Shown one piece after another: positions 22,212 to 43,833 of a DNA stretch of 64,000 bases. This DNA comes from Mycolicibacterium cosmeticum (GTDB lineage: Bacteria; Actinomycetota; Actinomycetes; Mycobacteriales; Mycobacteriaceae). Numbering within the stretch: position 1 is the first letter of the stretch; each line of letters begins with the position of its first letter. Position numbers and translations under genes: made by a program. The DNA is taken from assembly GCF_000613185.1 (NCBI RefSeq), contig NZ_CCBB010000001.1, positions 2,418,001 through 2,482,000 on the forward strand, read 5' to 3'. Below the pieces are notes generated by a model. That model worked only from the letters and a program-made list of their open reading frames with translations. It searched no databases and had not been told where the DNA came from.

Positions 22212-23135
22212 TCAGGGGTGCAGCTCCACCAGGTCGTCGGTGGTCCACTCGCGGGCCGGAAGCACATCACGGAGCAGCCGCAGCAGCGCCGGGTTGGTGC
22301 TGTCCTGTCGCCAGGCGGCGTCGAGTTCGACCGGCCGCTCGCGGAACGCACCGATGGACCGGAACACCACGCCCTCGGGATGCAGCGTCGCGGCCGAGGC
22401 CGGCACCAGGGCGATCCCGATGCCCGAGCGCACCAGCACCAGCATGGTGTGCACCTGGGTCACGAACTGCACGTACCGCGGCGTGGCGCCGGCGATGGTG
22501 AAGGCACTGATGAGCAGCTCGTTGAAGTACCGCGCCTCGATCGGCGAGTACATGACGACGTCTTGGCCGTCCAGGTCGTTGAGGGTGAGCTGACGGGCCT
22601 GAGCCACCAGCGGGTGCTCGGCGGGCAGCGCGGCCACCAGCTGCTCGTGCAGCAGTGGCCGGGACACGATGCCGGGGCGCTTCAGCGGCGGCCGCGCCAT
22701 CCCCAGATCGATCTCGCCGGTCATCAGGCCCTCGATCTGGGCGGCCGAAACCATCTCGCGCAGTTCCAGTTTCACATCCGGCAGCTTGGCCCTGGTGCGT
22801 TCGAGCAGCCGCGGCAGCACCGCATGGGCCGAGGCCGCGGTGAATCCGACAACCACGGTGCCCAGGTCGCCGGCCGGCACCCGCTTGACGGTCAGGGCCG
22901 CACTCTCGGCCAGCTGCAGGATGCGGCGGGCGTCGGGCAGGAACGCGATCCCCGCGGGCGTGAGGGTGACCGAGCGGGTGGTGCGGTCGATCAGCTGCAC
23001 CCCCAGTTCGGCCTCCAGCTGCTGGATCTGCCGGCTCAGCGGGGGCTGGGTCATGTGCAGGCGTTCGGCGGCGCGGCCGAAATGCAGTTCCTCGGCGACG
23101 GCGATGAAGCAGGACAGCCGGGCCAACGAGAACAT
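22212..23135 (-). CDS. LysR-family transcriptional regulator
   Basis: 307 residues. The N-terminal winged helix (residues 1-60, FGRAAERLHMTQPPLSRQIQQLEAELGVQLIDR) is followed by a LysR substrate domain (VVVGFTAASAHAVLPRLL...). It is convergent with the dehydrogenase at 21183 and divergent from a TetR gene. Being inside the aldarate region it is a candidate activator of that pathway, perhaps through the inverted elements upstream of the aldehyde dehydrogenase gene. TAGACT plus six bases precedes the ATG, a leaderless arrangement. Confidence 0.92.
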   Translation of the reverse strand: MFSLARLSCFIAVAEELHFGRAAERLHMTQPPLSRQIQQLEAELGVQLIDRTTRSVTLTPAGIAFLPDARRILQLAESAALTVKRVPAGDLGTVVVGFTAASAHAVLPRLLERTRAKLPDVKLELREMVSAAQIEGLMTGEIDLGMARPPLKRPGIVSRPLLHEQLVAALPAEHPLVAQARQLTLNDLDGQDVVMYSPIEARYFNELLISAFTIAGATPRYVQFVTQVHTMLVLVRSGIGIALVPASAATLHPEGVVFRSIGAFRERPVELDAAWRQDSTNPALLRLLRDVLPAREWTTDDLVELHP

Positions 23136-23218
23136 CGCTGCAGTCTATGCGCGCCGCCGCACGGGCAGGGCCAATGTCTGCAGGCCAATCGGATGGGCGT
23201 CTGTGTCAAGATGATTCG
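23136..23218. promoter_or_regulatory. divergent promoter region LysR / TetR
   Basis: 83 bases. On the minus strand TAGACT (23147-23142) is six bases from the LysR ATG. No equally clear element precedes the TetR GTG at 23219. Confidence 0.5.
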
Positions 23219-23881
23219 GTGTCCGATCCCAAGCCCGACAGCGCACCCCGCGTCCGCCGGCGCTATGGCGGCCAGGAGGCCGCGGACCGGGTGGCCGAGC
23301 GCCGCAGCCGGTTGCTGGCCGCCGGCCTGGAACTGATGGGCACCCGCGGCGTCGCGGGAACGACGGTGCGCGGCGTGACGGAACTGTCCGGGGTGGCACC
23401 CCGATACTTCTACGAGAGCTTCGCCGATATCGAGGCGCTGCACCTCGCGGTGTACGGCGAGGTGATCGAAGAGGGCGCCCAGCGCTCGGTGGCGGCGCTG
23501 GCCAGCGCACCCGCCGATGACCGCGCCCGTATCCGGGCGGTGCTGGAGGAGATGGTCGACCTGATCCTGGCCGACCCGCGCAAGGGCCGAATCCTGGTGC
23601 TGGAGGCCACCGCCTCCCCGGCGCTGGGCCGGCGCAGCCTGGCCGAGTCCCGCCGGTTCGCCGGCATGCTGGCATCGTCGGCCGCCAGCGGTGGTGATCC
23701 CGGGCTCGAGCCCGACAGCCTGCCCACCGATATCCGGCTGATCGCGCAATTCCTGGTCGGCGGGATGATCAGCACGGTGGGTGCCGTCCTGCTGGGCGAC
23801 GTCCAGGTGGAACGCGCCCACCTCGTCGACGTACTGGTCGACCTGTTCGCCGCCGTGCGGACGACTACCAGCGTGGACTGA
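23219..23881 (+). CDS. TetR-family transcriptional regulator
   Basis: 220 residues with a TetR DNA-binding domain (about residues 20-70, RRSRLLAAGLELMGTRGVAGTTVRGVTELSGVAPRYFYESFADIEALH) and a helical C-terminal ligand domain with no recognisable subfamily. The GTG at 23219 gives a start directly before VSDPKPDSAPRVRRRYGG. Its 3' end overlaps the convergent dehydratase gene by 17 bases. Targets are unknown; the location suggests involvement in the surrounding catabolic genes. Confidence 0.88.
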   Translation: MSDPKPDSAPRVRRRYGGQEAADRVAERRSRLLAAGLELMGTRGVAGTTVRGVTELSGVAPRYFYESFADIEALHLAVYGEVIEEGAQRSVAALASAPADDRARIRAVLEEMVDLILADPRKGRILVLEATASPALGRRSLAESRRFAGMLASSAASGGDPGLEPDSLPTDIRLIAQFLVGGMISTVGAVLLGDVQVERAHLVDVLVDLFAAVRTTTSVD

Positions 23882-25130
23882 CCGCCTCGAACGCCGGGGC
23901 GATGCTGCGCATGTAACCGGTGTCGTCGCGGTCGCGGATGCCGCACCGCAGGTACTGCTCGTGCAGCGCGGCCAGGGCGTCGGGGTCGAGTTCGACGCCG
24001 AGTCCCGGGGTGACCGGGACGGCGACGCTGCCGTCCCGGATGCTCAGCACCCCGGGCTTGACCACGTCTTCGCTCTTCCAAGGCCAGTGCGTGTCACAGG
24101 CATAGGTCAAGTTCGGGGTGGCGGCGGCCAGGTGCACCATCGCGGCCAGGCTGATGCCCAGGTGCGAGTTGGAGTGCATGGACAGGCCGAGCCCGAAGGT
24201 GTCGCAGATGCCGGCGAGCAACCGGGAGCGTTGCAGGCCACCCCAGTAATGGTGGTCGGAGAGCACCACTTTCACCGCACCCGCGGCGACGGCGGGCGCC
24301 AGCTGGTCGAAGGCCACCACGCACATGTTGGTCGCCAGTGGCATCGGGGCCTGCGCCGCGACCTCGGCCATGCCCGCGATGCCGGGGGTGGGGTCCTCCA
24401 GGTATTCCAGGATGCCGGCCAGCCCGGAGGCCACCTTGATCGAGGTCTGCGGGGTCCAGGCGGCGTTGGGGTCCAGCCGCAGCGGGTGGTTCGGGAAGGC
24501 CGCGTGCAACTCCTCGATGGCCGCCATCTCCTCCTCGGGTGGGAATACCCCGCCCTTGAGTTTGATTGCGGTGAAACCGTATTCGTCGACCATGCGGCGG
24601 GCCTGCGCCACCAGGCCGGCCGGGTCGAGCGCCGCACCCCAGGAATCGGGCTCCTGGTCCGGATGGGAAGCCCACTTGTAGAACAGGTACGCGCTGAACG
24701 GCACGGCCTCGCGCACCGCGCCGCCGAGCAGATCGGCCACCGGCCGGCCGCTGGCATGACCTTGCACATCCAGGCACGCCACCTCGAACGGCGAGAACAC
24801 CTGGTCGACGGCGCTGGCGGAGGTGATCATCCCCGCGGTGCCGACGGCGGCGTCGTCACCGCGCAGCCGGTCGGCGATGGCGGACCGGATGGCGTTGAGC
24901 GCGAACACATCCAGTCCGGTGATCGCCTCGGCCGCCGCGTTCAGCCGGGCCAGGTGGCGGGTATCGGCGTAGGTCTCGCCGAGGCCGACCAGGCCGACGT
25001 CGGTGATCAGTTCGATGATCGCCCGCAGCGCGTAGGGCTGGTGCACCCCCACGGTGTTGAGCAGCGGCGGGTCGACGAAGGCGACCGGGGTGATGCGGGC
25101 TCCGGTGATCCGGATGGCTGCGGGCGCCAT
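23865..25130 (-). CDS. glucarate dehydratase-related enolase-superfamily enzyme
   Basis: A 421-residue mandelate racemase/muconate lactonizing-type enzyme with the KxK motif in AIKLKGGVFPP, metal-ligand segments LRLDPNAAW and YLEDPTPG, and the catalytic histidine region LSMHSNSHLGISLA. The last segment DTHWPW parallels DTHWIW in GudD, supporting an aldarate dehydratase, but overall similarity to the GudD at 12452 is low; galactarate or another acid sugar is possible. It is the third gene after the aldehyde dehydrogenase and KdgD and is coupled to kdgD by a TGATG overlap (ATG at 25130; a GTG at 25133 is also in frame). Confidence 0.82.
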   Translation of the reverse strand: MAPAAIRITGARITPVAFVDPPLLNTVGVHQPYALRAIIELITDVGLVGLGETYADTRHLARLNAAAEAITGLDVFALNAIRSAIADRLRGDDAAVGTAGMITSASAVDQVFSPFEVACLDVQGHASGRPVADLLGGAVREAVPFSAYLFYKWASHPDQEPDSWGAALDPAGLVAQARRMVDEYGFTAIKLKGGVFPPEEEMAAIEELHAAFPNHPLRLDPNAAWTPQTSIKVASGLAGILEYLEDPTPGIAGMAEVAAQAPMPLATNMCVVAFDQLAPAVAAGAVKVVLSDHHYWGGLQRSRLLAGICDTFGLGLSMHSNSHLGISLAAMVHLAAATPNLTYACDTHWPWKSEDVVKPGVLSIRDGSVAVPVTPGLGVELDPDALAALHEQYLRCGIRDRDDTGYMRSIAPAFEAVSPRW

Positions 25131-26035
25131 CACAGCACCGCGCGACCGGCTTTGATGATCTGGGTCAGTTCGGTGAGGTGTTCGGCCGAGGGCATCACCA
25201 GCGGCGGGCGCACCGGCCCGGCGTCGATGCCCTCCATCGTCACGCCGGCCTTGATCAGCGACACGGCGTAACCCGGCACGGTGTCCCGCAGCCGCACCAG
25301 CGGGTGGAAGAACTCCCGCTGCAACGCCCCGAGCGCCTCCTCGTCGCCGGCTTCCAGCGCCCGGTAGTAGGCCAGTGCCAGCTCAGGGGCGAAGGCGAAG
25401 GTGGCCGACGAGTACAGCGTCACCCCGATGGCGCGGTAGGCCTGCTGGGACACCTCGGCGGTGGGCAGACCGTTGAAGAACTGGAAGGCCTTGCCGGACG
25501 GGGCGAGGACGTCGGTGACGGCCCGCACGATGCGCGACACCCGGTCGACATCGCCGGTGCCGTCCTTGAATCCGACCACGTTCGGGATCTGGGCCACCTC
25601 CGCGGCGGACTCCTCGGTGTAGCGGGCATTACCCCGGTTGTAGACGATGACCGGCAGGTCGGTGGCGGCCGCGACCTCGCGGGTGTAGTCGATCAGGCCC
25701 TGCTGCGGCATGGTGACCAGATACGGCGGCAGCAGCAGCAGGCCGTCGGCGCCGGCGGCGGCGGCCGTCTTCGCGAAGACCTTGGCCTGGGCCACCGACC
25801 CGCCCGCGCCGGCGTACACCGGAACCCGGCCGGCGGTGGCAGCCACCGCGGTGCGCACCACCCCGCCGAACTCCTGGGCCTCCAGGGCATGGAATTCGCC
25901 TGTGCCACAAGCGACGAACACACCGCCGGGGCCGGCGTCCACACCCTTGGCGACGTGCGCGGCGAGCGCCTCCAGGTTCACCTCGCCGGTGCCGGTGAAG
26001 GGGGTGACGGGAAAGAACAGGACGCCGTCAAGCAT
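25130..26035 (-). CDS. kdgD: 5-dehydro-4-deoxyglucarate dehydratase (KdgD)
   Basis: A class I aldolase-superfamily (DapA-like) enzyme that dehydrates and decarboxylates 5-dehydro-4-deoxy-D-glucarate to 2,5-dioxopentanoate. The 301 residues start LDGVLFFPVTPF and contain the GTGEFHALE phosphate/acid-binding-type loop, the tyrosine in VIVYNRGNARY and the Schiff-base lysine in VVGFKDGTGD. Its neighbours on both sides catalyse the preceding and following steps. The ATG at 26035 gives the usual family length. Confidence 0.93.
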   Translation of the reverse strand: MLDGVLFFPVTPFTGTGEVNLEALAAHVAKGVDAGPGGVFVACGTGEFHALEAQEFGGVVRTAVAATAGRVPVYAGAGGSVAQAKVFAKTAAAAGADGLLLLPPYLVTMPQQGLIDYTREVAAATDLPVIVYNRGNARYTEESAAEVAQIPNVVGFKDGTGDVDRVSRIVRAVTDVLAPSGKAFQFFNGLPTAEVSQQAYRAIGVTLYSSATFAFAPELALAYYRALEAGDEEALGALQREFFHPLVRLRDTVPGYAVSLIKAGVTMEGIDAGPVRPPLVMPSAEHLTELTQIIKAGRAVL

Positions 26036-26067
26036 GGGTGTACTCCTAGCGGAATCGGGTTGGGAGG

Positions 26068-27660
26068 TCAGTCGCGGGACAGTTGGCCGTCGACCCGGCG
26101 CCAGATGCGGTCCGGGTTGCCGTCGGCAATGGCGCTGGGCAGCAACGCCGATGGGACGTCCTGGTAACACACCGGACGCAGGAAACGCTCGATGGCGCGG
26201 GCACCGACCGAGGTGGTGCGCGCGTCCGAGGTGGCGGGGTACGGCCCGCCGTGCACCATGGCGTAGCCGACCTCGACACCGGTGGGCCAGCCGTTGAACA
26301 AGATGCGCCCGGCCCTGAGTTCCAGCACGGGCAGCAGTTTCGCCGCGACACCGTAGTCGGACTCCTCGGCGTGCACGGTGGCCGTCAGTTGCCCCTCCAG
26401 CGCGGCAGCCACCCGCACCATCTCGTCGATGTCGGCGCAGCGCACCAGCACGCTGGCGGCACCGAACACCTCGGCCTGCAACGCCTCCGAAGCCAGGAAG
26501 GTCTGGGCATCGGCGCTGAACAGCGCTGCCTGGCAGGAGGTTTCATTGTCGGCGGGCCGACCCTGAGCCACGAGGGTGGACTCGGCCCGCAGGGTGGCCA
26601 CACCCTTGGCGTAGCCGGCGGCGATGCCGGGGGTGAGCATCGGGGTGGCCGCCACCCCGACGAGCGCGGACTCCGCGGCGGTCAGGAAGTCCGCCAGCCC
26701 CGGGCCGTCCACGGCCAGCACCAACCCGGGATTGGTGCAGAACTGTCCGGATCCCATGGTCAGCGAGCCGACGAACGCCGTGCCGATCTCGGCGCCGCGT
26801 GCCCGCAGCGCACCCTCGAGCAGGAAGACCGGGTTGACGGCGCTCATCTCGGCGTACACCGGGATGGGTTCCGGGCGCGCCGCGGCCGCGGCCACCAATG
26901 CCGTTCCCGCGTAACGAGATCCGGTGAATCCGACGGCCTTGATCCGCGGATCGGTGACCAGCGCGGTACCCAGGCCGGGTCCGGAGCCGAACAGCAGGGA
27001 GAAGGTGCCCGCGGGCATCCCGGTCTGGGCCACCGCGCGCGTGATGGCCGCCCCGACCAGTTCGGAGGTGCCCGGGTGCGCGTCGTGCGCCTTGACCACC
27101 ACGGGGCACCCGGCCGCCAGCGCGGACGCGGTGTCACCGCCGGCGACCGAGAACGCCAGCGGGAAGTTGCTCGCGCCGAATACCGCGACCGGGCCGAGCG
27201 GCACCGCGCGCTGGCGGATGTCGGGGCGCGGCAGGGGGCTGCGATCGGGCTGGGCGGGGTCGATGCGGGCGCCGTTCCAACTGCCCTCGCGCAGCACCGC
27301 CGCGAACAGGCGCAGCTGACCGGTGGTGCGGCCCACCTCGCCGGTGATGCGGGCCTCGGGCAGGCCGCTCTCGGCGACGGCGCGCGCCACCAGTTCGGCC
27401 TTGATCGCCTCGATGCCGGCGGCGACCGTCTCCAGGAATTGGGCGCGCTGCTCGGCGGTGGTGGCCCGGTAAGGACCGAACGCCTCGGCGGCCGCGGCGC
27501 ACGCGGCGTCGACGTGCGACTCGTCGCCGTAGTGGAAGGCGGGCTCCAGCGTCTCGCCGGTGGCCGGGTTGAAACCGCGGACCTCGGTGCCGGTTCCGGC
27601 GACGGGCACCCCGGCGATGATCATCTGGCCGGTCGGGCGGGCGGTCAGTTGGGTGGTCAC
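26068..27660 (-). CDS. 2,5-dioxopentanoate (alpha-ketoglutaric semialdehyde) dehydrogenase
   Basis: A 530-residue NAD(P)-dependent aldehyde dehydrogenase of the family specialised for alpha-ketoglutaric semialdehyde. Features are FGASNFPLAFSVAGGDTASALAAGCPVVVKAH, the nucleotide-binding GFTGSRYAG, the catalytic Glu in VYAEMSAVNP, and the catalytic Cys in GSGQFCTNPG. Converting dioxopentanoate to 2-oxoglutarate feeds carbon into the TCA cycle, completing the route begun by the dehydratases. It is the first gene of the three-gene operon. The GTG at 27660 follows TAGCGT by seven bases, suggesting a leaderless transcript. Confidence 0.92.
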   Translation of the reverse strand: MTTQLTARPTGQMIIAGVPVAGTGTEVRGFNPATGETLEPAFHYGDESHVDAACAAAAEAFGPYRATTAEQRAQFLETVAAGIEAIKAELVARAVAESGLPEARITGEVGRTTGQLRLFAAVLREGSWNGARIDPAQPDRSPLPRPDIRQRAVPLGPVAVFGASNFPLAFSVAGGDTASALAAGCPVVVKAHDAHPGTSELVGAAITRAVAQTGMPAGTFSLLFGSGPGLGTALVTDPRIKAVGFTGSRYAGTALVAAAAARPEPIPVYAEMSAVNPVFLLEGALRARGAEIGTAFVGSLTMGSGQFCTNPGLVLAVDGPGLADFLTAAESALVGVAATPMLTPGIAAGYAKGVATLRAESTLVAQGRPADNETSCQAALFSADAQTFLASEALQAEVFGAASVLVRCADIDEMVRVAAALEGQLTATVHAEESDYGVAAKLLPVLELRAGRILFNGWPTGVEVGYAMVHGGPYPATSDARTTSVGARAIERFLRPVCYQDVPSALLPSAIADGNPDRIWRRVDGQLSRD

Positions 27661-28134: not shown

Positions 28135-28243
28135 GGCGCCACGCTAGACGCGGGACGCGCGTGTGCACATGGTTGCGATCAGCGAGACCGAATGGGAATG
28201 GGCCCGGCCCGTGCGCCGTCACCGGCCCGTCACCGACGCTTAG

Positions 28244-28255
28244 TAGTTTGTACGG
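28244..28255 (+). promoter_or_regulatory. leaderless-type -10 of the Pls/PosA synthetase operon
   Basis: TAGTTT at 28244-28249, six bases, then the GTG start at 28256. It is expected to drive the synthetase, the M1 peptidase and possibly the three following genes. Confidence 0.55.
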
Positions 28256-31200
28256 GTGACAGCGGAACCGGTCCCGGTGATTCCCCCTCAGTACCTCTTG
28301 TCGTCCTCGGCACCGGAGCCCCGCACGCTGATCGACATCCTCTACGACACCGCGCGCCGCCACCCCGACGCCCCCGCCATCGACGACGGCGAGATCCAGC
28401 TGACCTACGCCGAGCTGATCGGCGATATCGAGGAGAGCGTGGCCTGGCTGGCCGCCCGCGGCATCGGCCGCGGCGACCGGATCGGCATCCGGATGCCCTC
28501 GGGCAGCTATGCCCTCTACACCGCCATCCTGGCCACCCTGGCCAGCGGTGCCGCCTACGTCCCGGTGGACGCCGACGACCCCGACGAGCGCGCCGCCCTG
28601 GTGTTCGGCGAGGCCGACGTGGTCGCGGTGATCACCGAGAAAGGCCTGGTGCGCGGGCCCGGGTCGTCGCGCGGCTGGCGCGCCGCGGCCCCGCTGACCA
28701 GGGACGACGCCTGGATCATCTTCACCTCCGGCTCGACCGGCACCCCCAAGGGGGTGGCGGTGACGCACCGCAACGCGGCGGCGTTCGTCGACGCCGAGGC
28801 GCGGATGTTCCTGCAGTCCAATCCGCTGGGGCCCGGGGACCGGGTGCTGGCCGGGTTGTCGGTGGCCTTCGACGCCTCGTGTGAGGAGATGTGGCTGGCC
28901 TGGCGGCACGGCGCCTGCCTGGTACCGGCGCCGCGGTCGCTGGTGCGCAGCGGCATGGACCTGGGGCCGTGGCTGGTGTCCCGCGACATCACGGTCGTCT
29001 CGACGGTCCCCACGCTGGCCGCGCTGTGGCCGGCCGAGGCCCTGGAGGCGGTCCGGCTGCTGATCTTCGGGGGCGAGGCGTGCCCACCTGAGCTGGCCGA
29101 GCGGCTGGCGGTCGACGGCCGCGAGGTGTGGAACACCTACGGCCCCACCGAGGCCACCGTCGTCGCCTGCGCAGCACCGCTGGACGGGAAGGGTCCCGTC
29201 AGCATCGGGCTGCCGCTGCCCGGCTGGGACCTGGTGGTCGTCGACAAGGACGGCGCCCCGGTCGGTTACGGCGACGTCGGCGAACTGGTGATCGGCGGGG
29301 TGGGCCTGGCCCGCTACCTGGACCCGGACAAGGACGCCGAGAAATACGCGCCGATGCCCACCCTCGGCTGGGACCGGGCGTACCGCAGCGGCGACCTGGT
29401 CCGGCTGGAAGCCGACGGCCTGTACTTCCAGGGCCGCGCCGACGATCAGGTCAAGGTGGGCGGTCGCCGGATCGAACTCGGTGAGGTCGACGCCGCCCTG
29501 GTGCATCTGCCCGGCGTCAGCGGCGGTGCGGCGGCGGTCCGCAAAACCGCCAGCGGCACCCCCCTGCTGGTCGGTTATATCGCCAGCGCCGACCCGGCGT
29601 TCGACCTGGCCGCCGCGCGCACCGCACTGGCCGCCGCACTGCCCGCGGCGCTGGTGCCCCGGCTGGTGCTGCTCGACGAACTGCCCACCCGCACCTCGGG
29701 CAAGGTCGACCGCAACGCGCTGCCCTGGCCACCGCCCGGCGCCGCCGCCGAGGACGAACCCGATCTGGGCACCGGCACCACCGGCTGGCTGGCCGGGCTG
29801 TGGCGCGACGTGCTGGGCGCGACGATCGACGGGCCGGAGGCCGATTTCTTCGCACTCGGCGGTGGATCGCTGTCGGCCGCCCAGCTGGTGACCGCGGTGC
29901 GGGCCCGCTACCCGCAGGTGACCGTCGCCGACCTCTATGACCATCCCCGGCTGGGTTCGCTGGCCGGCTATCTCGACGAGTTGGCTCCCCCGCCGCAGGT
30001 GCAGACCCGCACTGTGGCGCCCACCCCGCTGCTCACCCAGCTCGCCCAGGTGGTGCTGTCGGTTCCGCTGGCCACCCTCAGCGCCCTGCAGTGGGTGGTG
30101 TGGCTGGCCGTGCTCGACAACATCGCCGCCGCGACGCACCTGGTGCCCTGGGCCGTACACCTGAACTGGTGGATCGTCCTGGCCGGTTTCCTGATCTTCA
30201 TCACCCCGCTGGGCCGGATGGGTATCGCGGTGCTGGGGGCCCGCACCCTGCTGTCGAATCTGCAGCCGGGCACCTACCGGCGCGGCGGATCCGAGCACCT
30301 GCGGGTGTGGTTCGCCGAACGGCTCGCCGACGCCAGCGGCGCGGAGAATCAGGCCGGCGCCCCGTGGCTGGTGTATTACGCGCGTGCCCTTGGCAATTCG
30401 GTTGGCAAAGGCGTCGACCTGCATTCGGCGCCGCCAGTCACGGGCATGCTCACCATCGGGCACCGCGCTTCGATCGAACCCGAGGTCGATCTCACCGGAC
30501 ACTGGATCGACGGTGACCTGTTCCACGTCGGGCCGATCAGCGTCGGCAACGACGCCACCATCGGCGCGCGCACCACCCTGTTCCCCGGCGCCGGCGTCGG
30601 GAAGAACGCCGACGTGGCGCCGGGTTCCGGTGTGGTCGGCAAGGTGAAGAACGGGCAGTACTGGAAGGGCTCGCCCGCGGCGAAATCCGGCAAGGCCCGC
30701 CACCCCTGGCCCGACGAACGGCCGCCGCGTTCCACGGTGTGGATGGCCGTCTACGCGGTGACCTCGATGTTGTTGGGGGCCTTGCCCTTGGCGGGTGTCG
30801 CGGCGGGGCTGGCCGTGCTGGCCTGGGCGGTCCGCGGCACCTCCACACCCACCGCGGCGATCGTGCCGGCGCTGCTCTGGACGCCGGTGGCCGCACTGGC
30901 GGCGATGGCCGCCTACGCCGCACTGACCGTCGTCGGGGTGCGGGTGCTCTCGATCGGCCTGACCGAGGGCTACCACCCGGTGCGCAGCCGGGTGGGCTGG
31001 CAACTGTGGGCCACCGAGCGCCTGATGGACGCCGCCCGCAACTACCTGTTCCCGATCTACGCCAGCCTGCTGACGCCGTGGTGGTTACGGGTGCTGGGCG
31101 CCAAGGTCGGCAAGGGCACCGAGATCTCGACGGCCCTGCTGACCCCGAAATTCACCGTCGTCGAGGACGGCGCCTTCCTGGCCGACGACACCATGGTCGC

Positions 31201-32140
31201 CTCCTACGAGTTGGGCGGCGGCTGGATCCACGTCGCGCGGGCCACCATCGGCAAGCGCGCGTTCCTGGGTAACTCCGGCATCACTCAGCCCGGGCGCCGA
31301 GTGCCCGACGACGGTCTGGTGGCCGTGCTGTCCGCCGCGCCGCACAAGGCCAAGGCCGGCTCGTCATGGCTGGGCAGTCCGCCGATCCGGTTGCGCCGCA
31401 ACCCCACCGACGCGGACGCAATGCGCACCTTCCACCCGTCGGCACGGTTGAAGATCATGCGTTCGGTGGTCGAGACCTGCCGCATCATCCCGGTCATCGT
31501 GACGTTCGCGATCGGGGTGGCGGTACTCGGCGCGCTGCAGGCGCTGGCCGGTGCCTACGGGTTCGGCGTCGCCGCGCTGGCCGGCGGCCTGGTGCTGCTG
31601 ATCGCCGGGGCGGTCGCCGGTGGTATCGCGGTGATCGCCAAATGGCTTGTGATCGGCCGCATCCGGGCCGTCGAGCATCCGCTGTGGTCGTCGTTCGTGT
31701 GGCGCAACGAGGTGTCGGACACCTTCGTGGAGACGGTCGCGGCGCCCTGGTTCGCGCGGGCGGCCACCGGCACACCGGTGATGAACATCTGGTTGCGCGG
31801 GCTCGGCGCAAAGATCGGCCGCGGGGTGTGGTGCGAAACGTACTGGCTGCCCGAGGCCGACCTGGTGCGCCTGGACACCGGCAGCACCGTCAACCGCGGC
31901 TGTGTCGTGCAGACGCACCTGTTCCACGACAGGATCATGCGGATGGACACCGTGATCCTGGATGCCGGCGCCACCCTGGGGCCGCATTGCGTGGCACTGC
32001 CGGCCAGCCGGATCGGTGCGGGCGCCACCGTCGGCCCGGCATCGCTGGTGATGCGCGGTGACGAGGTTCCGGCGTCCACCCGCTGGCAGGGCAATCCGAT
32101 CGCGGTGTGGGATCCCTCGCGCAAGAAGAAGAACGGATGA
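28256..32140 (+). CDS. Pls/PosA-family single-module peptide synthetase
   Basis: A 1294-residue membrane-bound, NRPS-like enzyme. Residues about 20-500 are an adenylation domain (FTSGSTGTPKGVAVTH, NTYGPTEATV, YRSGDLVRLEADG, GGRRIELGEVD, TRTSGKVDRNALP). A thiolation domain follows, with its phosphopantetheine serine at Ser538 (LGGGSLSAAQ). There is no condensation or thioesterase domain; instead three repeats of hydrophobic helices plus a hexapeptide (left-handed beta-helix) domain occupy about 590-1290, ending with TVGPASLVMRG. This is the layout of poly-lysine-type synthetases. The pocket residues D206, A207, E210, S249, I270, G272, T294, V302, V303 and K483 suggest a basic amino acid, probably lysine. 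The next gene overlaps its stop. Confidence 0.88.
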   Translation: MTAEPVPVIPPQYLLSSSAPEPRTLIDILYDTARRHPDAPAIDDGEIQLTYAELIGDIEESVAWLAARGIGRGDRIGIRMPSGSYALYTAILATLASGAAYVPVDADDPDERAALVFGEADVVAVITEKGLVRGPGSSRGWRAAAPLTRDDAWIIFTSGSTGTPKGVAVTHRNAAAFVDAEARMFLQSNPLGPGDRVLAGLSVAFDASCEEMWLAWRHGACLVPAPRSLVRSGMDLGPWLVSRDITVVSTVPTLAALWPAEALEAVRLLIFGGEACPPELAERLAVDGREVWNTYGPTEATVVACAAPLDGKGPVSIGLPLPGWDLVVVDKDGAPVGYGDVGELVIGGVGLARYLDPDKDAEKYAPMPTLGWDRAYRSGDLVRLEADGLYFQGRADDQVKVGGRRIELGEVDAALVHLPGVSGGAAAVRKTASGTPLLVGYIASADPAFDLAAARTALAAALPAALVPRLVLLDELPTRTSGKVDRNALPWPPPGAAAEDEPDLGTGTTGWLAGLWRDVLGATIDGPEADFFALGGGSLSAAQLVTAVRARYPQVTVADLYDHPRLGSLAGYLDELAPPPQVQTRTVAPTPLLTQLAQVVLSVPLATLSALQWVVWLAVLDNIAAATHLVPWAVHLNWWIVLAGFLIFITPLGRMGIAVLGARTLLSNLQPGTYRRGGSEHLRVWFAERLADASGAENQAGAPWLVYYARALGNSVGKGVDLHSAPPVTGMLTIGHRASIEPEVDLTGHWIDGDLFHVGPISVGNDATIGARTTLFPGAGVGKNADVAPGSGVVGKVKNGQYWKGSPAAKSGKARHPWPDERPPRSTVWMAVYAVTSMLLGALPLAGVAAGLAVLAWAVRGTSTPTAAIVPALLWTPVAALAAMAAYAALTVVGVRVLSIGLTEGYHPVRSRVGWQLWATERLMDAARNYLFPIYASLLTPWWLRVLGAKVGKGTEISTALLTPKFTVVEDGAFLADDTMVASYELGGGWIHVARATIGKRAFLGNSGITQPGRRVPDDGLVAVLSAAPHKAKAGSSWLGSPPIRLRRNPTDADAMRTFHPSARLKIMRSVVETCRIIPVIVTFAIGVAVLGALQALAGAYGFGVAALAGGLVLLIAGAVAGGIAVIAKWLVIGRIRAVEHPLWSSFVWRNEVSDTFVETVAAPWFARAATGTPVMNIWLRGLGAKIGRGVWCETYWLPEADLVRLDTGSTVNRGCVVQTHLFHDRIMRMDTVILDAGATLGPHCVALPASRIGAGATVGPASLVMRGDEVPASTRWQGNPIAVWDPSRKKKNG

Positions 32141-33492
32141 GGGCGAACGCCAGGAAGGCCGCGAAGAAGACGGCGGGGGCGGCCGCTTCCAGTCCGCCGG
32201 TCATCGATCCGTACCTTCCGGGCAACGGCAACTTCGGGTACCGGGTGTCGCGTTACGAACTGGACCTGGAGTACAAGGTGTCCAGCAACCGGCTCACCGG
32301 GTCGGCCACCATCACCGCGGTGACATTGGCCGAGCTGCGCACCTTCACCCTCGACCTGGCCGACGCGCTGAGCGTGACGAAGGTCGGCGTCAACGGGCGC
32401 CGGCCCGACCAGTTCCGATGTTCGAACGGCAAGTTGCACATCACGCTGCCCGCCAAACTGCCCGCCGGCGCGGCGATGACCATCACCGTCCGCTACGGCG
32501 GGAACCCTCGTCCCATCCGAAGTGTCTGGGGCGAGGTGGGTTTCGAGGAACTCACCAACGGTGCATTGGTGGCCGGCCAGCCCAACGGGGCGGCGTCCTG
32601 GTTCCCGTGTGACGACCATCCGGCCGCCAAGGCGAGCTTCCGCATCAAGATCGCCACCGACAACCCCTACTATGCGATCGCCAACGGCGACTTGGTGTCC
32701 CGGCAGAACCGGGCCAGCCTGAACATCTGGACCTACGAGCTCGCCGAGCCGACCTCCACGTACCTGATCACCCTGCAGATCGGGATGTACGAACGGCTGC
32801 GGCTGCAGAAGAGCCCGGTGTCGATGTACGCGGTGCTACCGGACCGGTTGCGCCGCAACTTCGATCACGACTTCAGCCGTCAGCCGGAGATGATGAAGCT
32901 GTTCATCAGGCTGTTCGGCCCCTACCCGCTGGCCGACGGCTACACCGTCGTGGTCACCGACGATGATCTGGAAATACCCCTTGAGGCCCAAGGTCTTTCG
33001 ATCTTCGGTGCAAACCATTGTGATGGCAGGCGCAGCTGCGAGCGGTTGATCGCCCACGAGATGGCCCACCAGTGGTTCGGCAATTCGGTGACGGCCCGCC
33101 GCTGGCGTGATATCTGGCTGCACGAGGGATTCGCCTGTTACGCCGAGTGGTTGTGGTCCGAGGAGTCCGGCGGCCCCAGCGCCGACGAGCGGGCCCGCTC
33201 GTATCACAAACGCCTGCAGCACTCCCCGCAGAACCTGCTGTTGACCGATCCGGGGCCGGCCGACATGTTCGACGACCGCGTGTACAAACGGGGCGCGCTG
33301 ACGCTGCACGCCCTGCGGAAAGCCATCGGTGATGCCAGTTTCTTTGCGCTGCTGAAGGATTGGACGACGCGGTACCGGCACAGCACCGCGGTCACCGACG
33401 ACTTCACCGGGCTGGCCGCCAACCACGCCACCGTGTCCCTGCGCCCACTGTGGGATGCCTGGCTGTATTCGACGGCCGTGCCGGACCTGTGA
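32137..33492 (+). CDS. M1-family zinc metallopeptidase coupled to the synthetase
   Basis: A 451-residue gluzincin. The zinc site is HEMAHQW, with the third ligand Glu 18 residues on in DIWLHEGFACYAEW. The usual GxMEN substrate motif is replaced by a sequence reading IPLEAQGLSIFG. The N-terminal beta-sandwich and the catalytic domain are present, but the large C-terminal helical domain of PepN is missing. No signal peptide is seen, only a basic Ala/Lys-rich start. The ATG overlaps the TGA of the synthetase (ATGA), so the two are made together; trimming or degrading the synthetase product is a reasonable inference. A general aminopeptidase is the alternative. Confidence 0.87.
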   Translation: MRANARKAAKKTAGAAASSPPVIDPYLPGNGNFGYRVSRYELDLEYKVSSNRLTGSATITAVTLAELRTFTLDLADALSVTKVGVNGRRPDQFRCSNGKLHITLPAKLPAGAAMTITVRYGGNPRPIRSVWGEVGFEELTNGALVAGQPNGAASWFPCDDHPAAKASFRIKIATDNPYYAIANGDLVSRQNRASLNIWTYELAEPTSTYLITLQIGMYERLRLQKSPVSMYAVLPDRLRRNFDHDFSRQPEMMKLFIRLFGPYPLADGYTVVVTDDDLEIPLEAQGLSIFGANHCDGRRSCERLIAHEMAHQWFGNSVTARRWRDIWLHEGFACYAEWLWSEESGGPSADERARSYHKRLQHSPQNLLLTDPGPADMFDDRVYKRGALTLHALRKAIGDASFFALLKDWTTRYRHSTAVTDDFTGLAANHATVSLRPLWDAWLYSTAVPDL

Positions 33493-33499
33493 CGGTCGG

Positions 33500-34729
33500 A
33501 TGACGGAGGGGCCGGTCACGCGGAACAGCGTCGCCAGGGTGGGGGCGGCCACGGTGCTGTCCGCGCTGTGCGGCTACGCCGTGCTGTATCTGGCGGCCCG
33601 CAGTCTGGAACCGGCCGGGTTCTCCCTGTTCGGGGTGTTCTGGGGGGCGTTCGGTCTGGTGACCGGCGCCGCCTTCGGCCTGCTGCAGGAGGCCACCAGG
33701 GAGGTTCGGGCGGCCCGGCACACCGCCGTGCACACCGGTCCGCGCACCCACCCGATGCGGGTGGCGGCCGGGGTGGGTGTGGCGGCAGCCGTCGTCATCG
33801 CGGTGAGCGCACCGTTGTGGTCGGCGCATGTGTTCGTGCAGTCCAGGCTGCTGTCGGTGGTGCTGCTGAGTGTCGGGCTGGCCGGCTTCTGTCTGCACGC
33901 CACGCTGCTGGGCATGCTGGCCGGGGTGGACCGCTGGAGCCAGTACGGCGCCCTGATGGTGACCGACGCCGGCATCCGGGTGGTGGTCGCGGTGGCGAGC
34001 TTCCTGGCCGGGTGGGGGCTGACCGGCTATCTGTGGGCGACGGTCGCCGGCTCGGTGGCGTGGCTGATCCTGCTGTCGGCCTCACCGGCGAGCCGGGCCG
34101 CGGCGGGACTCGCGACACCGGGCGGGGTGCGCACCTTCCTGGCCGGCGCCACCCATTCGATCGCGGCCGCGGGCGCCAGCGCAATCCTGATCATGGGGTT
34201 TCCGGTGCTGCTGAAGGCCACCACCCCGCATCTGGGCGCCACCGGCGGGGTGGTGATCCTGGCCGTCACCCTGACCAGGGCACCGCTGCTGGTTCCGCTC
34301 ACCGCGTTGCAGGGCAACCTGATCGCCTACTTCGTCGACAAACCGCACGAGCGGATGCGTGCCCTGATCACCCCGGCGGTGGCGGTGGCCGGAATCGGGC
34401 TGCTCGGCGTGGTCGCGGCCGGGCTGGCCGGGCCGTGGCTGCTGCGCACCGCGTTCGGCCCCGACTACGTGGCCGGCGGGCCGCTGTTGGCCTGGCTGAC
34501 CGCCGGCGCGGTGGCCATCGCGTTGTTGACGCTGACCGGCGCGGCCACCGTGGCCGCCGCCCTGCAGCGCGCCTATGCGGCCGGTTGGGTCGGCGCCACG
34601 GTGGCCGCCGCCCTGCTGTTGCTGCTGCCGGTCGAGCTGGAGACCCGGACGGTGGTGGCGCTGTTGTGCGGCCCGGTGGTGGGAATCGCCGTGCACCTGA
34701 CCGCGCTGGCGCGGGCATCGGCATCCTGA
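33500..34729 (+). CDS. polysaccharide-flippase-like integral membrane protein (Rv3630-like)
   Basis: A 409-residue protein with about 12 hydrophobic helices and an N-terminus like O-antigen/teichoic-acid flippases (VARVGAATVLSALCGYAVLYLAARSLEPAGFSLFGVFWGAFGLV). It corresponds by position to Rv3630, next to ppgS. A role in flipping or exporting a polyprenyl-linked sugar, such as the product of the next gene, is inferred from family and context. It starts at the ATG at 33500, only eight bases after the M1 peptidase, so it may be co-transcribed with the synthetase. Confidence 0.75.
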   Translation: MTEGPVTRNSVARVGAATVLSALCGYAVLYLAARSLEPAGFSLFGVFWGAFGLVTGAAFGLLQEATREVRAARHTAVHTGPRTHPMRVAAGVGVAAAVVIAVSAPLWSAHVFVQSRLLSVVLLSVGLAGFCLHATLLGMLAGVDRWSQYGALMVTDAGIRVVVAVASFLAGWGLTGYLWATVAGSVAWLILLSASPASRAAAGLATPGGVRTFLAGATHSIAAAGASAILIMGFPVLLKATTPHLGATGGVVILAVTLTRAPLLVPLTALQGNLIAYFVDKPHERMRALITPAVAVAGIGLLGVVAAGLAGPWLLRTAFGPDYVAGGPLLAWLTAGAVAIALLTLTGAATVAAALQRAYAAGWVGATVAAALLLLLPVELETRTVVALLCGPVVGIAVHLTALARASAS

Positions 34730-34741
34730 GCTTGTAGTCTG

Positions 34742-35449
34742 GTGCGCATCGATACCCCGTACCAGGACGTTTGGATCATCGTCCCCGCCTTCAACGAAGC
34801 GAGCGTCATCGCCGACGTCGTCGCCGATCTGCGCACCACCTTTCCCAACGTGGTGTGTGTCGACGACGGCAGCCGGGACGGTACCGCCGAGGCCGCGCAC
34901 GCCGCCGGCGCGCACCTGGTGCGCCATCCGGTCAACCTCGGCCAGGGCGCGGCCATCCAGACCGGCGTGGAGTACGCCCGGTCACGGCCCGGCGCGGCGG
35001 TGTTCGTCACGTTCGACGCCGACGGGCAGCACCGGGTCAAGGACGTGATCCGGATGATCGACCGGCTGGCGCCCGGCCGGCCCGACGAGGTCGACCTGGT
35101 GATCGGCACCCGGTTCGGCGGTACGGTCACCCACACCCCGCCGCTGAAACGGATCATCCTGCGGGTGGCGGCCGTCGTCAGCCCGCACAGCCGCAGCCTG
35201 GGCCTGACCGACGCGCACAACGGGCTGCGGGTGTTCAACAAGAAGGTCGCCGACGAACTCAACATCACCATGAACGGGATGTCGCATGCCGGTGAGTTCA
35301 TCGCGCTGGCGGTCGAAAACCGTTGGCGGGTGGCCGAAGAACCGGTCGAGATCCTCTACACCGACTATTCGAAGTCCAAGGGCCAGCCGCTGCTCAACGG
35401 GGTCAACATCTTGTTCGACGGCTTGCTGCGCGGAAGGATGCCGCGATGA
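34742..35449 (+). CDS. ppgS: polyprenyl-phospho-N-acetylgalactosaminyl synthase (PpgS), GT2
   Basis: A 235-residue family 2 glycosyltransferase with an IIVPAFNEASVIADVV start, the nucleotide-binding VDDGSRDGT and the catalytic DxD-type FDADGQH. By synteny and sequence it is the ortholog of Rv3631, reported to make polyprenyl-phosphate-GalNAc, the donor for galactosamine decoration of arabinogalactan. The DUF2304 gene that follows overlaps it by four bases, as Rv3632 does with Rv3631. The GTG at 34742 is 12 bases after the flippase-like gene. Confidence 0.88.
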   Translation: MRIDTPYQDVWIIVPAFNEASVIADVVADLRTTFPNVVCVDDGSRDGTAEAAHAAGAHLVRHPVNLGQGAAIQTGVEYARSRPGAAVFVTFDADGQHRVKDVIRMIDRLAPGRPDEVDLVIGTRFGGTVTHTPPLKRIILRVAAVVSPHSRSLGLTDAHNGLRVFNKKVADELNITMNGMSHAGEFIALAVENRWRVAEEPVEILYTDYSKSKGQPLLNGVNILFDGLLRGRMPR

Positions 35450-43757: not shown

Positions 43758-43833
43758 TGGAGCCGCCTGGGGGAATCGAACCCCCGACCTTCTCATTACG
43801 AGTGAGATGCTCTACCGACTGAGCTAAGGCGGC
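43758..43833 (-). tRNA. tRNA-Thr, anticodon CGU, CCA encoded
   Basis: A complete cloverleaf on the minus strand: acceptor GCCGCCT pairing AGGCGGC, D-arm with AGCTCAGTCGGTAGAGC, anticodon stem TCTCA/TGAGA around the loop CTCGTAA (anticodon CGT), and T-arm GGGGGTTCGATTCCCCC. The discriminator is T, followed by a genomically encoded CCA (43760-43758). It reads ACG codons. A tRNA-Thr at this place between accessory DNA and the delta' gene agrees with the order I recall in M. tuberculosis. Confidence 0.97.

Follow-up and report, generated by a model that had tools for sequence, protein, structure and literature searches.

Do mycobacteria carry the means both to make and to consume a polymer built from a single amino acid? 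The question is raised by two adjoining genes in a 64,000-nucleotide stretch of the Mycolicibacterium cosmeticum genome (contig NZ_CCBB010000001.1, positions 2,418,001 to 2,482,000), hereafter the window, in whose coordinates all positions are given. A first-pass annotation had read these genes as a homopoly-amino-acid synthetase, of the kind that makes the natural antimicrobial epsilon-poly-L-lysine (epsilon-PL), coupled to an M1 zinc peptidase that would turn the polymer over. Our analysis supports that reading: the two genes probably form a mycobacterial pair of the pls-pldII type, in which a lysine polymer would be made by the synthetase Pls and consumed inside the cell by the M1 enzyme. 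If so, mycobacterial biochemistry would gain a further polymer.

The synthetase and its predicted substrate

Open reading frame and translation checks show two intact genes joined by an ATGA, as the annotation had described, and this overlap suggests that pls and the M1 gene are translationally coupled. The features of the pair are as follows.

28240..28255, + strand: TTAGTAGTTTGTACGG, directly 5' of the GTG start, with a -10-like TAGTTT at 28244-28249 at what would be leaderless spacing
28256..32140, + strand: pls-type gene for an epsilon-poly-L-lysine synthetase-like enzyme (1294 aa, GTG start; TIGR02353, PF00501 and PF00550, PDB 7WEW)
28322..29743, + strand: adenylation (A) domain, approximately residues 23-496, from alignment to 7WEW
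29786..29974, + strand: thiolation (T, carrier) domain, residues 511-573 (PF00550; GGGS serine present)
30044..32101, + strand: Pls/PosA terminal domain, residues 597-1282, with three hydrophobic-helix groups and three hexapeptide-type lobes
31910..31930, + strand: QTHLFHD segment (Q1219, H1221, D1225) in the third lobe, candidate catalytic site
32137..32140, + strand: ATGA shared by the stop of pls and the start of M1, read from the sequence
32137..33492, + strand: PldII-like zinc metallopeptidase of the M1 family (451 aa; N terminus free of an export signal in a hydrophobicity test)
33055..33126, + strand: zinc site of the M1 enzyme, H307-E308-M-A-H311 and E330, in invariant alignment columns

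The terminal domain carries the family assignment. It matches TIGR02353, the NCBIfam model of the Pls/PosA family, over residues 597-1282 with 745 bits against a cut-off of 423, a strong match of the kind that had been predicted, and it is the only TIGR02353 match in the 6.46-Mb source genome. A Pfam scan of the 1294-aa protein identifies solely PF00501 (AMP-binding) and PF00550 (PP-binding), with neither a condensation nor a thioesterase domain. The layout is that of the Pls/PosA family, an A and a T domain followed by the TIGR02353 domain, and we rule out an ordinary fragment of a nonribosomal peptide synthetase (NRPS) because the terminal domain is family-specific and condensation and thioesterase domains are absent. 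Hydrophobic stretches lie inside residues 599-662, 827-903 and 1070-1136, and a structure model of the terminal domain (pLDDT 92.5), whose fold we compared, has a long helix ahead of each lobe, so the predicted helices agree with the family layout of six transmembrane helices separating three lobes. The annotation's description of a one-module A-T enzyme with a membrane/hexapeptide C terminus is confirmed. Across 93 aligned rows H1221 is the sole invariant histidine of the terminal domain, and the QTHLFHD segment that holds it is a candidate catalytic site.

The substrate can be predicted from the A domain, for which the closest solved structure is 7WEW, likewise an A domain, from an epsilon-poly-L-lysine synthase (E 2.2e-189). 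With pocket positions taken from PosA as given in the available text of PMC10522769, alignment to 7WEW places D206, A207, E210, S249, I270, G272, T294, V302, V303 and K483 in the pocket. The resulting code, DAESIGTVVK, is identical at 10/10 positions in the window enzyme and the crystallised 7WEW, which makes L-lysine the predicted substrate. Such pockets were also the main ground on which Jiang et al. assigned lysine to coryneform homologues, as described in the accessible part of PMC8117764. PosA, the delta-poly-L-ornithine synthetase of Acinetobacter baumannii, shares the enzyme family, the terminal domain and the Asp and Glu of the pocket, but has Met218, His260, Asn280, Thr304 and Ser313 where the window enzyme has Ala, Ser, Ile, Thr and Val (PMC10522769, as far as its text was available).

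The pair across loci and genomes

Operons of pls with a peptidase gene have been reported before, from Streptomyces and Corynebacterium (PMC8117764 and PMC9223678, each available in part), and in Streptomyces albulus a gene named pldII adjoins pls and is translationally coupled to it (PMC9223678, same extent). The annotation's statement that polylysine-degrading enzymes of Streptomyces producers are M1-type fits this: three Streptomyces loci nearest 7WEW (L241-L243), with A domains 91-93% identical to it, carry an M1 gene directly after pls. Through these loci the window pair can be compared with the S. albulus system, which it resembles in the A-T-terminal-domain layout, the 7WEW pocket, the M1 gene directly downstream of pls and, over 440 residues, 42% identity of the M1 enzyme. 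The window Pls is only 53-54% identical to the three proteins nearest 7WEW, however, and falls outside their clade together with most other actinobacterial Pls. The operon of Corynebacterium variabile, compared by its description in the available part of PMC8117764, likewise has a coryneform Pls with a lysine-type pocket and a peptidase gene.

The linkage of the two genes is widespread. Our set of 198 loci, partly redundant, includes 175 of Pls type, of which 171 have the full pocket code, one has a single change and three are cut by contig ends. A window-type M1 gene lies on the same strand at most 400 nt downstream in 166 of the 175; in the nine exceptions it lies 571-2169 nt downstream (five loci), the contig ends (one) or no M1 is found in the flank (L087, L128 and L140, the genome of L087 having an M1 gene on another contig). 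By comparison, none of the 23 non-Pls-type loci has an M1 gene within 400 nt, and in four it is 925-962 nt away. The M1 gene adjoins pls in all 30 of the first loci collected (L002-L031, the window's included; one cut by a contig end) and is matched in 79 of the 80 named loci, the remaining one being cut by a contig end. An NTGA overlap joins 125 of 179 scored pairs and a 1-nt overlap 19 more, six further pairs more than 150 nt apart having been left out of this scoring.

The M1 gene is also co-conserved with pls across genomes, the outcome that the annotation's reading predicted. Among 248 genomes sampled from the genus, Pls is found in 184 and M1 in 183: both genes occur in 183, Pls alone in one, M1 alone in none and neither in 64. 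In a sister genus of the family (121 genomes), a Pls orthologue (at least 54% identical) and M1 are found in the same 88 genomes and neither orthologue in 33. There the genes are mostly unlinked, with 36 pairs on different contigs and, of 52 pairs on the same contig, 50 at least 89 kb apart and two within 10 kb, both of which match the C-terminal half of M1 only; nine pls loci fetched from this genus have no M1 within the fetched stretch, a difference from the C. variabile operon. Since co-occurrence is kept where the genes no longer adjoin, Pls and M1 are likely partners, and the M1 gene is probably a functional partner of pls. Chance or mis-called genes are ruled out by the profile, Pfam, locus and genus-survey results.

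On a wider scale, the M1 gene is present in 140 of 151 genomes of the family (28 of 30 genera), and a TIGR02353 protein above cut-off in 68 of 246 genomes of the class. A match had to pass the cut-off or reach E 1e-40 or stricter, because in a control scan a loose threshold gave matches in 13 of 14 genomes, only one of them (Corynebacterium glutamicum) above cut-off. That control genome thus holds a TIGR02353 protein, though C. glutamicum is a host in which the C. variabile gene gave no epsilon-PL in the part of PMC8117764 available.

A quick tree of 72 Pls proteins (SH-aLRT support, no bootstrap) places the window Pls among mycobacteria (100), within a clade of 58 actinobacterial rows (100) that is separate from the S. 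albulus-like clade (99). Mycobacteria cluster together with Nocardia, Rhodococcus, Tsukamurella and their kin, and the closest named relatives of the window locus are Mycolicibacterium and Mycobacterium. Recent horizontal arrival in this genome is not favoured, as the window enzyme groups with mycobacterial rows and the gene is present in 184 of the 248 genomes surveyed in the genus. Some families, including f3 and f41, are split in the tree, so transfers elsewhere are possible.

Several divergent Pls proteins were met in these surveys. In the sister genus, a paralogue class 45-49% identical to the window enzyme occurs in at least 16 of 121 genomes (e.g., G1025, G1029, G1035 and G1010), and three of the 33 orthologue-less genomes hold only this type. 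A second Pls type with a lysine pocket, found on plasmid pMAH135 (L256, 6186-10166) and in L140, is 82% identical between the two and 73% to the window enzyme, with no M1 nearby in the stretches examined. The pMAH135 gene overlaps one of the cysteine-synthase family, with NRPS genes on either side, and may therefore belong to the pathway of another, hybrid product. On the Rhodococcus opacus plasmid pROB01 (L257, 4246-8124), a lysine-pocket Pls lies beside response regulator, MarR and PhoU/PstB genes, with no M1 in the stretch. TIGR02353 proteins in shorter frames of 816-1191 residues (L061, L073-L079, L086, L109, L125, L127 and L129-L131) are probably a split version of the enzyme. Nine of these loci show DIWQSTADDK as the pocket of their best A-domain match; we did not count these as Pls variants, as such matches are probably neighbouring NRPS frames of stand-alone terminal-domain genes.

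The M1 enzyme and the fate of the predicted polymer

The second gene encodes, as annotated, an M1 zinc peptidase. Its HEXXH-(18)-E site is complete, with H307, E308, H311 and E330 invariant in 68 aligned M1 sequences, and PLEAQG stands at the position of the GxMEN-type motif, the exopeptidase motif of M1 metallopeptidases, with the Glu (E283) the sole invariant residue of its first four in the same 68 sequences. Its identity to the two-domain M1 zinc metallopeptidase of Deinococcus radiodurans (6A8Z, 6IFF and 6KOY) is 29%.

Where this enzyme acts is the main difference between the window pair and that of S. albulus, whose PldII is placed outside the membrane by the available text of PMC9223678. 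We scored the hydrophobicity of M1 N termini, with a threshold of 1.6 and start codons chosen by the analyst. All 12 S. albulus-like loci with an M1 gene have a signal-like start, CSRR (11) or CTRR (1) followed by a hydrophobic stretch, with a lowest score of 1.63; a 13th such locus, L252, has no M1. By contrast, no export signal is seen in 80 loci of mycobacterial type, the window's own among them, whose Pls shares at least 73% identity with the window enzyme (top score 1.05), in 80 other actinobacterial loci (1.22) or in 13 other Streptomyces loci (1.29). Four distant loci all have a signal-like M1 start. L133-L136 (family f28) hold distant Pls relatives in which the pocket reads DFEYIGTVTK or DFEYLGTVTK, and a signal-bearing M1 lies approximately 0.9 kb downstream. 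The window M1 enzyme is predicted to be cytosolic and, lacking the signal, is named PldII-like rather than PldII.

The steps of the proposed pathway would be these. The A domain would activate L-lysine with ATP and load it on the thiol of the carrier domain, and the membrane-bound, three-lobed terminal domain would join lysines singly via the epsilon-amino group, as in Pls, to give epsilon-poly- or oligo-L-lysine. Family, pocket and architecture are shown here; polymerisation and product are extrapolated from the enzyme of S. albulus and that of C. variabile. The M1 enzyme, presumably made by translational coupling, would be a soluble zinc peptidase hydrolysing the lysine isopeptide; with no export signal it would be expected to act in the cytoplasm, trimming or recycling the chain inside the cell, and not outside it as reported for S. 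albulus PldII.

Several observations weigh against this reading. M1 peptidases usually cut alpha-peptide bonds, and isopeptide cleavage is here an extrapolation. The localisation comes from a hydrophobicity test with chosen start codons, which is neither an experiment nor a trained predictor. The co-occurrence counts are raw, uncorrected for shared ancestry of the genomes or joint losses. The genus includes one genome (G790) that carries Pls but lacks M1, and the family includes one (G895) that gives no TIGR02353 match but carries an M1 of this group, 47% identical and with one TGA in the matched stretch. Pls copies with no nearby M1 are found in L128, L140, L252, on plasmids pMAH135 and pROB01, and in the nine fetched loci of the sister genus. 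Our literature search found no lysine polymer reported from any mycobacterium. Finally, the available part of PMC8117764 reports no detectable epsilon-PL from C. variabile itself or from C. glutamicum expressing its pls; the former result would fit an intracellular cycle, although it proves nothing because the Pls protein was also undetected in that test.

The annotation further regarded such a pair as not known to be described in mycobacteria. We found no paper on it there either, in a literature search covering few subscription journals, but the claim overstated its novelty, since the pair is known from the two genera cited above. What appears to be new is its spread in a mycobacterial genus, its unlinked co-occurrence in the sister genus and an M1 enzyme with no export signal.

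What might an internal lysine polymer be for? The available text of PMC9606270 describes the significance of polycationic homopoly(amino acid)s in biology as unclear. The pair's presence in approximately three quarters of the genus genomes (183/248), with a single Pls-only genome and an apparently cytosolic hydrolase, points away from secreted antibiosis and towards another physiological role, for which the pair offers a tractable laboratory system. Tentatively, most mycobacteria and their family may run an intracellular lysine-isopeptide cycle, with a membrane synthetase making epsilon-oligo- or polylysine and a dedicated cytosolic hydrolase consuming it, comparable to the making and recycling of cyanophycin. 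The polymer would be a store of lysine or nitrogen, or a polycation for internal use, and not a secreted antibiotic; in that case S. albulus, with its exported hydrolase, would have the derived, antibiotic-making version. A review lists epsilon-PL as active on Mycobacterium tuberculosis (a table figure of 32, with the unit absent, in the part of PMC8506220 available), so a mycobacterium producing the polymer would have to tolerate it somehow.

It is less likely that the pair makes a secreted epsilon-PL antimicrobial as in S. albulus, with the peptidase serving only for self-protection. Pocket, gene order and overlap type are those of S. albulus, and C. variabile Pls gives epsilon-PL of 26-35 residues in cultures of Streptomyces coelicolor (PMC8117764, in the portion available). 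However, the window M1 lacks the export signal of the S. albulus-like clade, the distribution (183 of 248 genus genomes for the pair, 28 of 30 family genera for M1) is unlike that of a sporadic antibiotic cluster, and C. variabile released none, with the same proviso about its undetected Pls protein.

More doubtful still is a lysine chain attached to an envelope acceptor (a lipid, glycan or peptidoglycan), with M1 editing misloaded or short chains. The terminal domain does have membrane-type helices and lobes like those of hexapeptide acyltransferases, and the next genes in the window encode a protein of no known family and PpgS, a polyprenyl-phosphate sugar synthase. Against this, characterised relatives make free polymers, and among the 80 named loci, some with short flanks, PpgS is near the pair in 20 and the preceding protein in 30, so these two genes are not regular companions of pls. 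That M1 is a general aminopeptidase merely located behind pls is very improbable: M1 enzymes are common house-keeping peptidases and G895 has one with no pls, but only one of 248 genus genomes breaks the co-occurrence, and none of 121 does in the sister genus, where the genes are mostly unlinked (counts uncorrected for ancestry).

Flanking genes and the pls start

The remaining features found around the pair are listed below.

22212-23135, - strand: LysR regulator, by profile search
23865-25133, - strand: glucarate dehydratase-like, below the cut-off of that model
25130-26170, - strand: 5-dehydro-4-deoxyglucarate dehydratase type (DHDPS family), passing the subfamily model's cut-off but not that of the KdgD equivalog
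26068-27660, - strand: aldehyde dehydrogenase, by profile search
33455-35449, + strand: protein with no Pfam or NCBIfam match, then PpgS (polyprenyl-phospho-N-acetylgalactosaminyl synthase), by profile scans
43758-43833, - strand: tRNA-Thr (cgt); no other tRNA gene was found in the window

The glucarate-type catabolic genes at 22212-27660 are divergently transcribed, and the three glucarate-type enzyme genes stand beside pls in two of the 80 named loci. Lysine supply by the DHDPS-family gene at 25130-26170 was considered and ruled out, given its match to the 5-dehydro-4-deoxyglucarate dehydratase subfamily and its place next to the glucarate dehydratase-like gene.

At the start of pls, the element at 28240-28258 looks like the -10 element of a leaderless transcript. 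Among 38 loci with Pls at least 80% identical to the window's, 22 have an AGTA..TTTGTA-like element immediately preceding the start codon, and 15 have a TAGGA/TAGTA variant.

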